From positions 1 through 47,792 of the IMG/VR virus record IMGVR_UViG_3300007346_000047: 47,792 nt of DNA. One strand, written 5' to 3'. The position numbers were made by a program, and so were the translations under genes. A model generated the notes under the pieces. The model was not told where the DNA came from. It searched no databases and worked only from the letters and a program-made list of their open reading frames with translations. Below are positions 17,702 through 25,832 of this stretch, piece by piece. Each line of letters begins with the position of its first letter. Position 1 is the first letter of the stretch. Source of the DNA: a virus.

Positions 17702-19165
17702 TTAATAGTACGCACGCACCTTAACAGATGTTGCGTCATCTTCCCAGTCGTCCACCGGCAACTGAATAAAGTTACCCTGACGATACCGCATTAAAGCCTG
17801 CGTCATACTATCAACCAAATCATCATACTCCCCATTGGGAAATGCCGCTACCTCCTCAATCATCTCATCCGCCCAAGTCTCGTCCGGAACCCAAACCATT
17901 CCCGCCTCAAACAACGGACTCACACTGTGTACTCGCGAAACCTTGTCATTACCCCTACTAGGCGTGAAATTTACTACCGGAATGCCCATGTTCCGCAACT
18001 CCTGCGTCAACGGCAAACCACTCGCCTTAGCCTCAATGATAACCGTGTCCGGCTCCCAAAACCTATACAAATCTAAAGCCTCTTTTTTTAAATCCGGAAA
18101 ATCCCAACGGCCCTTCTTACTGTCTAACAATATTAAATTGGGACCACTCCCGCCCTCATTCGGGTAAAATACACCCCACGTCGTTATAGCACTGTAATCC
18201 GAAGTCTCTCGCTTACTGAAAGCCGTGTCGTAACTCTGTATGACATACTCTAACTGCGGAACACGATCCTTATCCCAACGCTTCCACCACTCCCGCGGAA
18301 TGATCGCATTCTCCTCACCCGTCGGATTCTGCTGATACTGAGCATTCCACTTGCTCGGAGGTATTGATGCGCGGACCGCGGTTAAATCTTCTAAACTCCA
18401 ATACTCCGGCCAACACGGAGAACCATCCTCAAATATCGCCGGTAACTCAACAATCTCCCACTGGTCCGCTAAAGGGTCCTTCGCCATCGCACGAACTAAT
18501 TGACCCGTCATGTCCTTCTCTGACCAACGCGTCTGAACCAAAACTATACTGCCACCCGGCTGTAAACGCTGACGAGGTCCACCAGTATACCACTCCCAAG
18601 CATCCTCAAAACCAGCATTCGACATAGCCGTCTGCTCTGAATGCGGATCGTCAATAATTACTAAATCACCACCGCGTCCAGCCAAGTTCGAACCCACACC
18701 AACCGCATAATACATCCCGCCAGATGACGTGTCCCAACGACCAGACGCCTTGCTGTCCGACGCTAACTTAACCTTCGGAAAAATCTCCTTGTACTCATCA
18801 CTCTCAATCAAATTCTTCGTCTTACGTCCAAAATTTACAGCCAACTCCGTCGTGTGCGTCGCCTGAATGATCTTCATTCGCGGACTGAGGCCCATCATCC
18901 ACGCCGGAAACAAAAATGACGCAAACTCACTCTTCGTGTGCCGCGGAGCCATGTTAATAATTAAACGCTTTAAATCACCGCTCGCTACTCGCTCCAACTT
19001 CTCCGCTATAATCTTATGATGACGGCCAGCAATGAACTCAGGCCAAACCGTCTTCACAAAACTTAAAAAATTATCTCGACAAGCTTCATTCTGCTCAAGC
19101 TGCGCGAGCCTTAGACGAAGCTTCAATTCTTTCTCATCTAAGGCCGCGGACCGCGGTGCTTTCAT
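17702..19165 (-). CDS. terL: Terminase large subunit (487 aa)
   Basis: The motor-nuclease cuts and pumps DNA into the prohead. ATPase motifs: a Walker A-like INMAPRHTKSEF, Walker B LVIIDDPHS and the coupling motif VQTRW. RNase H-like nuclease residues: QSYDTAFS (Asp), VIIEAKASG (Glu) and the C-terminal DDLVDSMTQAL (Asp). Start chosen at the ATG at 19165 after a GGGGG site; a TTG four codons upstream is possible. The small subunit is not adjacent but 4 kb away, and a repeat complex fills the upstream 700 bp. Confidence 0.9.
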   Translation of the reverse strand: MKAPRSAALDEKELKLRLRLAQLEQNEACRDNFLSFVKTVWPEFIAGRHHKIIAEKLERVASGDLKRLIINMAPRHTKSEFASFLFPAWMMGLSPRMKIIQATHTTELAVNFGRKTKNLIESDEYKEIFPKVKLASDSKASGRWDTSSGGMYYAVGVGSNLAGRGGDLVIIDDPHSEQTAMSNAGFEDAWEWYTGGPRQRLQPGGSIVLVQTRWSEKDMTGQLVRAMAKDPLADQWEIVELPAIFEDGSPCWPEYWSLEDLTAVRASIPPSKWNAQYQQNPTGEENAIIPREWWKRWDKDRVPQLEYVIQSYDTAFSKRETSDYSAITTWGVFYPNEGGSGPNLILLDSKKGRWDFPDLKKEALDLYRFWEPDTVIIEAKASGLPLTQELRNMGIPVVNFTPSRGNDKVSRVHSVSPLFEAGMVWVPDETWADEMIEEVAAFPNGEYDDLVDSMTQALMRYRQGNFIQLPVDDWEDDATSVKVRAYY

Positions 19166-19250
19166 GGGGGCCCCCAAAGTTATTTATATGCGATTAGTAC
19201 CTTATAATAGTACACCATATCATTTTTTATGGGAATATTTGTGAGAAACA
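19166..19250 (-). promoter_or_regulatory. AT-rich terL leader with TAATCGCATA motif
   Basis: The 85 bp before terL are AT-rich in an otherwise very GC-rich stretch. On the minus strand they contain TATTATAAGGTAC and then TAATCGCATATAA, sharing the TAATCGC core found at other promoter-like sites (22948, 23952, 28214). No good -35 box is seen at 17 bp. A palindromic GGGGGCCCCC lies in the ribosome-site region. Confidence 0.35.
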
Positions 19251-19353
19251 TGGCCCTAGCACCCGCCGGTCGGCCCCGGGGGCCGCGCGCCGGGGGCGGG
19301 CGGATCGGGCCGGGTGGTGATGGCGGAATGACCCGATATCCAGGGGCCCCGGG

Positions 19354-19720
19354 GCGACATCGGGCCGGGGGATGTCGGGCCGGGGATGTCGGGCCGGGGG
19401 ATGTCGGGCCGGGGCGACATCGGGCCGCCGGACATCGGGCCGGTGACATCGGGCCGCCGGACATCGGGCCGGTGACATCGGGCCGCCGGACATCGGGCCG
19501 GTGACATCGGGCCGCCGGATGTCGGGCCGGTGACATCGGGCCGCCGGATGTCGGGCCAGGCGACATCTGGCCGGGAGATGTCGGGCCGCCGGATGTCGGG
19601 CCGCCGGATGTCGGGCCGGGCGACATCTGGCCGGGAGATGTCGGGCCGCCGGATGTCGGGCCGGGGCGACATCTGCAGGGCAGATCGGGCCGCCGGATGT
19701 CGGGCCGGGGAACATCGGCA
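19354..19720. repeat. GC-rich array of ~25 units of about 15 bp upstream of terL
   Basis: Units of the form GACATC or GATGTC followed by GGGCCG recur 25 times, spaced mostly 15 bp, with alternating 14/15 bp (29-bp period) in the middle. The hexamer flips between its two reverse-complementary forms while GGGCC keeps its orientation. All frames are open on both strands only because of composition, and the 14-bp steps break any reading frame, so I treat it as non-coding. Confidence 0.85.
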
Positions 19721-19728
19721 GGGCAGAC

Positions 19729-19897
19729 GTCGACGCGCTGCCGACGTCAAAATGATGCGGGACGTGGTCAAAAAGGTGCTCTCTGGTCTATCTGGTGGTC
19801 GATTGCCGGGCAATCCTACGCTGAGATTGACCAGAGAGCACAAAAAAACCCCGCCGGGGATCGCCCGGCGGGGTTTTGACGTCGGCAGCGCGTCGAC
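19729..19897. repeat. Nested perfect inverted repeats (24 bp outer, 13 bp inner)
   Basis: Outer arms 19729-19752 and 19874-19897 are perfect reverse complements (24 bp) around 121 bp. Inside, 19776-19788 and 19829-19841 form a perfect 13-bp inverted repeat, and 19801-19815 forms a 7-bp hairpin. The right outer arm begins at the terminator T-tract and ends on the stop codon of the 88-aa gene. Confidence 0.9.
19842..19878 (-). terminator. Strong Rho-independent terminator after the 88-aa gene
   Basis: A perfect 14-bp stem (19845-19858 with 19864-19877) and a 5-base loop are followed on the minus strand by a run of seven T. The plus strand ends with four T, so weak bidirectional action is possible. 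It separates the accessory genes from terL. Confidence 0.9.
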
Positions 19898-20163
19898 TAG
19901 TCGTCGGCAGGTTCCCATTCCACCGGATCCGATGCCTCTCGCACCTCGCGACGGTTCCGGATATCGGTTAGGTCCTCATTCAGCGCGGACTCTAACTGAT
20001 CGAGCGCGCGGTTGAGCTGCCGGTTGATCTCGTCAACCTTCCACTTCTTAACTTTATCACCGGTCAGATTAATGCGGCCGTGAAGGATGTCGAGCAGGTC
20101 CGAAACATCCCGCGCGGCAAGGATGAAGTGCGCGCCGTCCTCTAAGGTGTACTGGTATTTCAT
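19897..20163 (-). CDS. Hypothetical acidic helical protein (88 aa)
   Basis: MKYQYTLEDGAHFILAARDV starts a protein with two helical segments (VDEINRQLNRALDQLESALN, EDLTDIRNRREVREA) and an acidic end. No family recognised. It is the last gene before a strong terminator, and its stop codon lies at the edge of a 24-bp inverted repeat. The high GC content matches the genes upstream rather than the late operon. Confidence 0.6.
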   Translation of the reverse strand: MKYQYTLEDGAHFILAARDVSDLLDILHGRINLTGDKVKKWKVDEINRQLNRALDQLESALNEDLTDIRNRREVREASDPVEWEPADD

Positions 20164-22953: not shown

Positions 22954-23329
22954 TGGGAGCAATCAATCCTAAAATCATATCCCAATCAATTTCTTCTGAT
23001 CCCAGGTACAACGGCTCAACCGCCATGCCCTCTAATTTTAGGTCGGAGGCTTTCGATCCCGGATACAAACGCACCTCTTGCGGTTTGGTTTTCGTCGCGA
23101 CCTTCAGCACCAAAACCCAAACGCTGGCCTTTAACTTCGCATGTCGGTGGAGCCACGCGACCTGATGGGGCCGTAAATCGACTGCGCGGCCCGCTGTGGC
23201 CTTTAGTTCGACGAAATGGAACTTACCCTGCTCGTCGCATAGCATGACGTCTGGGACGCCCGGCAGCGCCCAAGACTCAAGACGGGTCGCCGTCAAGTTC
23301 CGGTTCGTCGTCGCCATCCCCGCTTTCAT
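22949..23329 (-). CDS. VRR-NUC-like PD-(D/E)XK nuclease (126 aa)
   Basis: The core LPGVPDVMLCDEQGKFHFVE followed by LK gives the PD...ExK catalytic pattern. DLRPHQVAWLHRHAKL after it fits VRR-NUC/Holliday-resolvase-like nucleases. Such small phage nucleases trim branched DNA before packaging or act in recombination. The frame is open to 23416; the ATG at 23329 (MKAGMATTNRN) follows GGAGG closely and overlaps the small-terminase gene by 53 bp. The ATG at 23317 is an alternative. Its position after terS suggests a role in preparing DNA for packaging. Confidence 0.75.
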   Translation of the reverse strand: MKAGMATTNRNLTATRLESWALPGVPDVMLCDEQGKFHFVELKATAGRAVDLRPHQVAWLHRHAKLKASVWVLVLKVATKTKPQEVRLYPGSKASDLKLEGMAVEPLYLGSEEIDWDMILGLIAPI

Positions 23330-23927
23330 CGTCCTCCAGAACCCGCTTTCCCTGTTCGCTGCCGTCGTCGGTATCGCTCGTTCTTTCGGGAGTAATGTCG
23401 ATAGTGATTTCGCCATTAGACTGTTTTAGCTCCTCTAAGGCCTTCATGACCTCGTCCTTCGACATACTGTCGATGCTGCCATGCCGGATTTCGGATTTGG
23501 AAACATAAATATCTCCCTGCGCCTGCCCTCGTCGATACTCGGCCTGGACGGCCGCAGAGTATGCCCCGTTCTGCAAAGCCACGTCCCGGATTTTTTGCAG
23601 GTCGCGCAGATGGCGCTGGTACGTCACGCCATACTTCTCGTCCAGCTCTTGGCGATAGGCTTGGATCGCTGCGCAGACGTGTGGGCTATGATCCGGGTTT
23701 GTCAGCTCATATGCACGGGTGTGTGCAGAGCCTGCCGTATATCCTGCGTTGATGGCGGCCTCGCGCAGTGTGATCTGGCCATCCTTTGCGACCAGCTCTT
23801 TTACAAACAATTCCTGCCTTCGGGTCAGCGGAGTGTTTACCGACACGCCCGGACGCCCAACCTCGCCCTGCCCAATCTTTTGCTTGTTCTTACCGCGCCA
23901 CGTGATTTTGTCTGACCGTGCAGTCAT
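23277..23927 (-). CDS. terS: Terminase small subunit (216 aa)
   Basis: The N-terminal HTH pattern of Terminase_2 proteins is clear: LTRRQELFVKELVAKDGQIT, LREAAINAGYTAGSAHTRAY. It is followed by a helical oligomerisation region (YQRHLRDLQKIRDVALQNGA, YSAAVQAEYRRGQAQG) and a very acidic C-terminus. TerS recognises the packaging site and recruits the large subunit. Start chosen at the ATG at 23927 (MTARSDKITWRG) after AAGGGG. It is separated from terL by about 4.1 kb of accessory genes and repeats, which is unusual. Confidence 0.75.
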   Translation of the reverse strand: MTARSDKITWRGKNKQKIGQGEVGRPGVSVNTPLTRRQELFVKELVAKDGQITLREAAINAGYTAGSAHTRAYELTNPDHSPHVCAAIQAYRQELDEKYGVTYQRHLRDLQKIRDVALQNGAYSAAVQAEYRRGQAQGDIYVSKSEIRHGSIDSMSKDEVMKALEELKQSNGEITIDITPERTSDTDDGSEQGKRVLEDDESGDGDDEPELDGDPS

Positions 23928-23951
23928 TCGTATCCCCTTCTGTCGTATGCG

Positions 23952-23981
23952 ATTGTACCCATAAACAGCCTTTATATACAA
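23952..23981 (-). promoter_or_regulatory. Putative promoter of terS
   Basis: Minus strand: -35 TTGTAT (23976-23981), 18-bp spacer, -10 TACAAT (23952-23957) followed by CGCATACG. The -10 plus CGCATA resembles the sites at 22948 and 28214. Confidence 0.5.
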
Positions 23982-24334: not shown

Positions 24335-25069
24335 TCAGAGCTGCGCCTGCAACAAATCTGCTCCAGTACCCGTAACGGCCTCCCGCTTCAATACTTCGGG
24401 GTGGCTATCAACACTATCCAGCATCCACAAATAAGCGGCGGCATGGTCGTTGTCGCCGTGCGTTTCCTCTATGGCAGCGCGGAACTCGGCGACGGTCTTG
24501 TCTTGGAAACAGCCGGTCCAAAAACGTAATCCGACGCCACACTTATGAACGATGGTGGTGTGCCGTCCCTCAGAACCAATGGGGCCGATGGACATAAACC
24601 AGTCGCCCTTTTCGATATTCGCGCGCGGGCCGATATTCGCGCCGGGGCCGATATCCGCGCCGAGGCCGATATCCGCGCCGAGGCCGATATTTGCGTTTTC
24701 GCCGATATACGCGCCGGGGCCGATCTTCGCGTCTTCGCCGATATACGCGTAAGGGCCGATATCCGCGTCGGAGCCGATCTTCGCGCCGGGGCCGATATTC
24801 GCGCGCGGGCCGATCTTCGCGCCGGGGCCGATCTTCGCCTCGGAGCCGATATTTGCGCGCGGGCCGACCTTCGCGTCAGAGCCGATCTTCGCGCGGGGGC
24901 TGATATACGCGTCGGGGCCAATCTCTATTGATGCGCTTAGTGTTAATCCCTCCGCAATCCGTGCCGTCACCGCGACAATAGCGCCTTCGGAACCATCCGG
25001 GTTGATATGCCTGCGGGCCTCGGCTTCAAGCCAACCGAAGAACTTGTGTGTGAAGATTTCGTTGCTCAT
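24335..25069 (-). CDS. Left-handed beta-helix (hexapeptide repeat) protein (244 aa)
   Basis: Residues 50-155 contain about 17 consecutive hexapeptides of the type I-G-x-x-A-x (IGPGAK, IGPRAN, IGSDAD and so on), the hallmark of LpxA-type left-handed beta-helices. The N-terminus (FFGWLEAEARRHINPDGSEG) and the C-terminal domain (FMSIGPIGSEGRHTTIVHKC, AEFRAAIEETHGDNDHAAAY) match domains known from other phage proteins of this kind. No acetyltransferase catalytic loop is obvious, so an adhesive, scaffold or DNA-mimic role is possible. Preceded by a coupled 20-aa leader. Confidence 0.75.
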   Translation of the reverse strand: MSNEIFTHKFFGWLEAEARRHINPDGSEGAIVAVTARIAEGLTLSASIEIGPDAYISPRAKIGSDAKVGPRANIGSEAKIGPGAKIGPRANIGPGAKIGSDADIGPYAYIGEDAKIGPGAYIGENANIGLGADIGLGADIGPGANIGPRANIEKGDWFMSIGPIGSEGRHTTIVHKCGVGLRFWTGCFQDKTVAEFRAAIEETHGDNDHAAAYLWMLDSVDSHPEVLKREAVTGTGADLLQAQL

Positions 25070-25128: not shown

Positions 25129-25192
25129 GCTGCGCCCTCCTTTCGTGAGCGACAAGGGACTTCTTTGCGGAAAACGCAAACAAGTCACGTTT

Positions 25193-25285
25193 GTCACCGT
25201 CGGAAAGTCTCCCACCGGTTTGTCACCGTCGGAAAGTCTCCCACCGGCATGTCACCGTCGGAAAGTCTCCCACCGGCATGTCACC
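25193..25285. repeat. 29-bp direct repeats, three copies plus a partial one
   Basis: GTCACCGTCGGAAAGTCTCC begins each unit at 25193, 25222 and 25251, and a truncated copy (GTCACC) starts at 25280. Units differ only at the junction (GGTTT or GGCAT). The array begins at the stop codon of the DnaA-like gene. Tandem units without spacers exclude CRISPR; iterons or an operator are plausible. Confidence 0.9.
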
Positions 25286-25832
25286 CGTAATATTGGTCTC
25301 TTTTCCGGGCGATCTCTTTAGCTTTTTTACTGTCCCCCTCCCAAGGCTTACGTGTAAGCTCCTCCACGTTTGGACGTAAGCTTTTTGGTTTTTTCGCACC
25401 GACCAGTTGTCTGGGTTTTACCAAGAGATCAATCCCGTCTTTTGCGCTGTCTGCCATTTCTTTGACGCCATCCGCAAATTTGAGTTCACGTTGCGACAAA
25501 AGTTCTTTTGACCGGTTGTATGTCGAGTGGGCGTCGGTCTTTAATTTTTCGTCTCGTTTCATTTTCTTCCAGGCAAATCGGGCGGTGGTGTGATCGTAGA
25601 GACCGGCGAAGACGCAACAGGTCTCGAACGTACAACCGGACAACCGCGTTGCGCACATCAAAACCTGCCGAGCGTGCACCAATCTTTTTTGTTTAGACCT
25701 GCACATAAAATCGTCTGATCCGGTCACTTCCTCGGTGGCTTGGATCAAGCTTTTGTGCAGCGGTGTTCCGGTCGGAATGGATCGCATCCTGATCAAGCGT
25801 TCGTCATTTTTTTTGTCATTTTTGAGCGTCAT
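25281..25832 (-). CDS. DnaA domain IV-like DNA-binding protein (183 aa)
   Basis: Residues 27-95 follow the DnaA C-terminal pattern: RSKQKRLVHARQVLMCATRL, SGCTFETCCVFAGLYDHTTA, RFAWKKMKRD. This includes the DHTT signature loop that contacts the DnaA box. No AAA+ domain is present, so it cannot load helicase as DnaA does. The C-terminal 80 residues are Lys/Glu-rich. It overlaps thyX by 4 bp and ends on a 29-bp repeat array, so it may bind that array as a repressor or origin-binding factor (inferred). Confidence 0.65.
   Translation of the reverse strand: MTLKNDKKNDERLIRMRSIPTGTPLHKSLIQATEEVTGSDDFMCRSKQKRLVHARQVLMCATRLSGCTFETCCVFAGLYDHTTARFAWKKMKRDEKLKTDAHSTYNRSKELLSQRELKFADGVKEMADSAKDGIDLLVKPRQLVGAKKPKSLRPNVEELTRKPWEGDSKKAKEIARKRDQYYG

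Follow-up and report, generated by a model that had tools for sequence, protein, structure and literature searches.

A conserved, single-copy cis region upstream of terL in marine phages carries a fast-changing GC-rich repeat tract and may be an initiation site

Introduction

Short repeated words are a feature of several well-described initiation sites. In phage T7, short repeats (SRL and SRR) made of imperfect units of about 7 bp lie beside the terminal repeat, and the sequence of the heptamer is fixed. The pac site of phage P1 consists of clustered hexamers, and pac sites are often found in or beside terS. Iterons, as in the lambda origin and in plasmids, are conserved in sequence and are bound by a known initiator.

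In the 47,792-nt viral record IMGVR_UViG_3300007346_000047 (the window, by which we mean the whole stretch that was analyzed), a GC-rich repeat array lies beside terL, and comparison with relatives supports the view that the array belongs to a conserved cis region that is non-coding, occurs once per genome and lies immediately before this gene. By analogy, the region may work like the repeat-bearing sites of lambda, P1 and T7, although we claim no family membership for it. It resembles the T7 repeats in having short imperfect units of about 7 bp next to a putative site for processing packaging or replication intermediates, but its period is common to the phages while its words are phage-specific. 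With P1 pac it shares the clustering of short words near packaging functions, but it has no palindromic Dam site, and the terS candidate is 4.8 kb away. As in iteron origins, direct repeats lie beside an AT-rich stretch, in a single copy and at a change of strand skew, whereas the words of the tract are not conserved in sequence and the initiator is here only postulated. What sets the region apart from all three systems is a tract with a common period but without a common sequence, which is unusual and calls for a mechanism.

Results and Discussion

TRF reported a 15-bp unit in 24.9 copies at 19349-19718; the higher-order periods that it gave are 29 and 60 bp. TRF, direct parsing and comparison with relatives together delimited the array at about 19351-19711, with higher-order steps of 29, 44-45 and 60 bp. 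Direct parsing revealed 23 GAYRTC hexamers between 19356 and 19701, 12 of them GACATC and 11 GATGTC. Successive hexamers follow each other at 14, 15 or 16 bp, except at two places, where the step is longer (28 and 30 bp). The word after the hexamer is GGGCC in 20 of the 23 cases, TGGCC in two and TGCAG in one. The original prediction had described about 25 units of roughly 15 bp, with either hexamer before GGGCC and beside terL, and in these respects our analysis agrees with it. The downstream gene (17702-19177, minus strand; TTG start at 19177, with an ATG at 19165 also possible) encodes the large terminase subunit, as judged from matches to PHROG 38 (E 2.4e-111) and Terminase_6C (E 1.3e-10), and the array is situated some 180-540 bp upstream. 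Genes for a PolA-type polymerase, helicases, a primase and a portal were also identified in the window.

We then compared the sequence upstream of terL among relatives. For this, 80 IMG/VR loci with TerL 84-100% identical were fetched by one database search ranked by terL similarity; the set is partly redundant, and periodicity was tested on non-redundant subsets. In the orientation of terL, the layout runs from the terminator that ends the upstream gene through the repeat tract, block 1, a fixed interval of 90-95 bp, block 2 and an AT-rich stretch to terL. Block 1 (19329-19350 in the window, minus strand; GGGGCCCCTGGATATCGGGTCA, family GGGTCCCNNNNNTATCGGGTCA) and block 2 (19236-19256, minus strand; GGGCCATGTTTCTCACAAATA, family GGGCCATGTTTCTCNCAAATA) were each found in 64 of the 65 loci with enough upstream sequence, the 90-95 bp being measured from start to start. 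Block 2 is single copy in the window and in all 12 records searched, which are up to 56 kb long, and it was absent from terL itself and from the sequence beyond it (811 kb, counting both strands). Block 1 is single copy in 11 of the 12 records and is missing in G016, whose contig stops short of it. The AT-rich stretch between block 2 and terL (19178-19235, minus strand) carries TTAACTGTCTTATATTTG...CATATAAT in relatives. At the terL start lies a perfect palindrome, GGGGGCCCCC (19166-19175), in place of which relatives have GGGACCCC or GGGGCCCC. MAG contigs with related terL come from mixed taxa and point to no single host, and CtrA sites (TTAAN7TTAA) were absent near terL in the three relatives checked.

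On the far side of the tract, the intrinsic terminator that closes the upstream gene (19845-19877, minus strand) is enclosed in a nested inverted repeat (19724-19906, minus strand), the long outer stem of which surrounds the terminator hairpin and a second long hairpin. This structure folds strongly (z = -10.0 against 200 shuffles) and was seen only in the clade of the window; among the window and its close relatives L001 and L002, the outer stem shows two compensatory pair changes, and 8 of 65 pairs are broken in L001. In about half of the loci tested (for example L007, L009 and L028), two further elements, ACAGTTAAA and CCAAACCTACSGG, lie on this side, mostly 38-39 bp apart and 120-250 bp upstream of block 1. 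The window clade is without them and has the nested inverted repeat there instead. An Rfam search of the region gave no family above cut-off, the best matches being far under gathering scores and mostly on the terminator hairpin.

The tract upstream of block 1 is rich in GC, with a mean of 63% against 50% for the loci, and GGNCC and GGCC are 2.2 and 2.4 times as frequent as in mononucleotide shuffles; for periodicity and GGNCC alike, the shuffles kept single-base composition only. In 43 non-redundant tracts outside the window clade, autocorrelation peaked at lags 7, 14, 21, 28, 35 and 42 (z 19-46), with four-letter matches at lag 7 reaching eight times the expectation (z 46), and the 7-bp period was individually significant in 33 of 44 tracts. 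Relative to terL, the signal falls only at about -600 to -200, and it does not recur elsewhere within about 3-4 kb. The words that carry it vary by phage (CCGCTGG, GGGCCGT, GGACCGT, ATGCTCG, CACCGGG and others) and show a strong strand bias, with 59 CCGTGG against 3 CCACGG, and counts of 47 against 2 for AGTTAA. Lag analysis of the window array itself gave peaks at 29, 15 and 14, not at 7. In our own reading, the unit of 14 bp can be split into a pair of heptads (GATGTCA CCGGCCC), and that of 15 bp can be split likewise, with one base left over.

Judged by TerL, the nearest sequenced relatives include phage 023Pt_psg01 and Pelagibacter phage HTVC027P, and the HTVC023P/HTVC027P-type pelagiphages and lake phage DSL-LC04 stand at 56-63%. 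DSL-LC04 has a GC-rich tract of 7-bp period before terL, as the group does, whereas the tracts of the SAR11 phages (HTVC023P/HTVC027P-type) are short and richer in AT. Neither parS nor, on reading of the upstream sequences, block 1 or block 2 was found in these records. The parts of the literature that we searched gave no published account of either block, of the heptad tract or of parS in front of terL.

The same control region is marked in many relatives by parS. The sequence TGTTNCACGTGNAACA is the chromosomal ParB site, as printed in papers on ParB and parS. Of the 74 loci whose sequence extends 120 bp or more upstream of terL, 44 have a perfect copy, and 18 of these have two; the copies (TGTTTCACGTGAAACA, TGTTCCACGTGGAACA) lie between block 2 and terL. 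Counted from where the terL match starts, they are at -65 and -41 in both L024 and L028 and at -45 in L046, with 41 more loci carrying them. Only one further match was detected elsewhere in 537 kb; in whole records of up to 54 kb the matches are solely at the terL site. By chance, 0.0002 matches per 54 kb would be expected. Unlike these relatives, the window has no copy of TGTTNCACGTGNAACA. No ParB domain was detected in the 15 records searched, although positive controls were, and hence parS, if it works, must use the ParB of the host. The sequences thus suggest that the parS-bearing relatives use host ParB; with over half of the relatives having a perfect parS before terL, lytic phages may draw on this host protein.

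Strand composition changes at the same place. On the terL strand, GC skew is about 0 (-0.05) before the region and rises to +0.20/+0.29 in terL (up to 81 loci), fading soon after the gene. Detrended cumulative skew is lowest within 100 bp of where terL starts in two genomes, the window and G019, but 5.3 kb away in G006; in G010 a minimum at the region is trivial, as the contig begins there. Fourfold-degenerate sites in terL have C at 0.10 and G+T at 0.76, compared with 0.27 and 0.57 in other genes, and the G-over-C skew of 0.60 at these sites is by far the strongest of any gene in the window, with a mean of 0.48 in 69 relatives. This bias is not present in the distant phages HTVC027P, HTVC023P and DSL-LC04. 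Taken together, the skew jump and the fourfold bias point to replication or heavy transcription that begins at the region, continues into terL and affects the two strands unequally; the skew could also come from strong late transcription or from a codon choice peculiar to terL.

The best explanation of these data, which we favor tentatively and with a little less than even confidence, is that the array is a lineage-specific version of a fast-changing, short-period, GC-rich tract within a single-copy control region, and that this region is a cis-acting initiation site at which DNA replication, or else packaging, starts. We counted for this reading the two blocks, their rigid spacing and single copy, the GC content, GGNCC excess and 7-bp period of the tract, the confinement of that period to this place, the strand bias of the words, the skew jump, the skew minimum of the window and G019, the fourfold-site bias of terL and an ancestral trimer described below, and against it the 14/15-bp period of the window array, the early fading of the skew after terL and the displaced skew minimum of G006. 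In mechanistic terms, a phage initiator or terminase complex would assemble on blocks 1 and 2, the tract would serve as a repetitive loading or spacer platform, and replication, or else packaging, would begin there; the repeats themselves could be neutral filler. That the region is a cis-acting site is a much firmer claim than which kind of site it is. Repeats beside an AT-rich stretch, once per genome, are what an origin calls for, and a position in or next to terS or terL is what a pac site calls for; the region has both, being directly upstream of terL with the terS candidate 4.8 kb upstream. Between the two, we place a replication origin slightly ahead. In either case, the region gives a precise place for testing where replication or packaging starts in a large group of uncultured marine phages.

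Packaging stands as the main rival, given where the region lies and that there is a terS candidate. If the region were a pac site, TerS would bind the module of blocks 1 and 2, or the array, TerL would make its first cut nearby, and headful packaging would follow. Besides the proximity of terL and the rigid, single-copy two-block module, a probable terS at 23277-23981 (minus strand; PHROG 51, E 1.6e-11; Pfam Terminase_2 just below cut-off), with matches at a similar relative place in 21 loci, speaks for this. Weak support comes from the likeness of TerL to that of phage Aaphi23, which is described as a headful-packaging phage (PMC3556154). Contigs also end far more often in the 600 bp before terL (28 of 61) than downstream (7 of 70; p 4e-6), but the ends are spread over hundreds of bases with no single position. 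This scatter speaks against a physical terminus at one base, and we take the excess as assembly failure in a repetitive, variable, GC-rich tract, which fits better than a fixed physical end. The distance of 4.8 kb to terS also weighs against packaging. The skew test does not separate an origin from a pac site. All in all, a pac site seems somewhat unlikely. The pac site proposed by the original prediction is one possible function of this conserved single-copy cis region next to terL, while the evidence for an origin, namely the skew jump and minimum, is at least as strong.

It is improbable, in our view, that the region serves transcription control only, as a terminator, an insulating repeat tract and a promoter of a late operon led by terL. 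A terminator does lie on one side and the conserved AT-rich stretch on the other, before terL, and a strong late promoter could produce strand skew as well. However, a promoter needs neither a second conserved block 90-95 bp away nor a tract of conserved period; block 2, occurring once per genome, is no general late promoter, and no convincing sigma-70 promoter was found at this place in the window.

Within the favored reading of an initiation site, a more daring version can be imagined, which we regard as quite improbable as it stands. The region would be a single-copy start site whose tract is built in steps of 7 nucleotides, for instance by staggered nicking and fill-in at each initiation, such that the period is inherited and the words are not, and sister phages would recruit host ParB there through parS.

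The tract turns over rapidly. Relatives with terL DNA 98-99% identical have arrays of different length and units. L001 and L002 are 98% identical to the window in terL DNA and 89% in the adjacent control stretch, and since their array differs, the distance from the terminator hairpin to terL is about 435 bp instead of 701 bp. The original prediction had named absence of the array beside a normal terL in close relatives as evidence against it; the exact array is indeed absent at 98-99% terL identity, but a related, shorter array takes its place and the region is conserved. Its suggestion of a recombination hotspot holds in the sense of a hotspot of turnover, where the tract may grow and shrink by repeat slippage or unequal recombination.

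The array is identical base for base in the IMG/VR contigs L004, the terL of which is 100% identical to that of the window, and L097, which terminates within the array. Its presence in three assemblies argues against a private misassembly, although the contigs may or may not stem from separate samples. That repeats accumulated neutrally in the space between two operons, or that they are an artefact of assembly there, is very improbable. The fast turnover of phage-specific words, the non-coding nature of the tract and the frequent contig breaks would fit it, but the three assemblies agree, the flanking blocks are rigid, the 7-bp signal is restricted to the sequence upstream of terL, and period, strand bias and GC content are common to the phages though sequence is not.

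The original prediction had the hexamer flipping between orientations, and here our results differ from it. In the place of the array, L001 and L002 have 2.5 copies of a 44-45 bp trimer. Its monomers carry, in this order, GATGTT, either TACATC or GTCATC, and GATCTG, and every monomer has a spacer of its own. One copy of this ancestral trimer (GATGTT / GACATC / GATCTG), common to L001 and L002, is kept at the upstream edge of the window array (19681-19716 and adjoining bases, minus strand), and the next units align to it; alignment of the array edge with L002 gave 98 identities, 9 mismatches and 6 gap positions. GATGTC is one substitution from GATGTT, and GACATC is one from TACATC or GTCATC. 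Since both forms are thus a single change from different, already neighboring monomers, they are best read, from these three arrays, as two ancestral monomers reshuffled by array growth, and the hexamer has probably not flipped in place. Segmental copying of units of 29, 45 and 60 bp would later have mixed the two monomers, with exchange between repeats needed only where GATGTC is now followed or preceded by the spacer that belongs to the other monomer.

Other origins of the two forms were weighed as well. GACGTC is present at 19726 and 19743, and its CpG decay into both forms is possible, but the trimer of the relatives gives the forms by single changes and the other CpGs of the array are intact. 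Selection of hexamer orientation through hairpins was rejected: the mixed array folds, as single-stranded DNA, at -124.9, compared with -109.7 for all GACATC and -101.4 for all GATGTC, but random orders of the same mix did equally well in 45 of 150 cases, and the order is therefore not tuned. Scarcely credible are a protein-coding repeat and an element that is truly invertible or phase-variable, in which a recombinase acting at inverted repeats would turn the unit round where it stands: the forms are reverse complements and all three minus-strand frames are stop-free across the array, but the forms trace to different ancestral monomers, the mixed steps of 14, 15 and 16 bp do not hold a frame, as the original prediction had pointed out for the 14-bp steps, and no frame is kept in the arrays of close relatives.

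Two other repeats were observed in the window. An 18-bp tandem array at 24613-24919 is coding and ordinary, unlike the one at terL, and belongs to a hexapeptide-repeat (left-handed beta-helix, PF00132) protein at 24335-25069. At 25192-25285, there is a 29-bp direct repeat in 3.2 copies with 96% matches, iteron-like in appearance; most of it falls between two genes, one at 24335-25069 and the other at 25281-25832.
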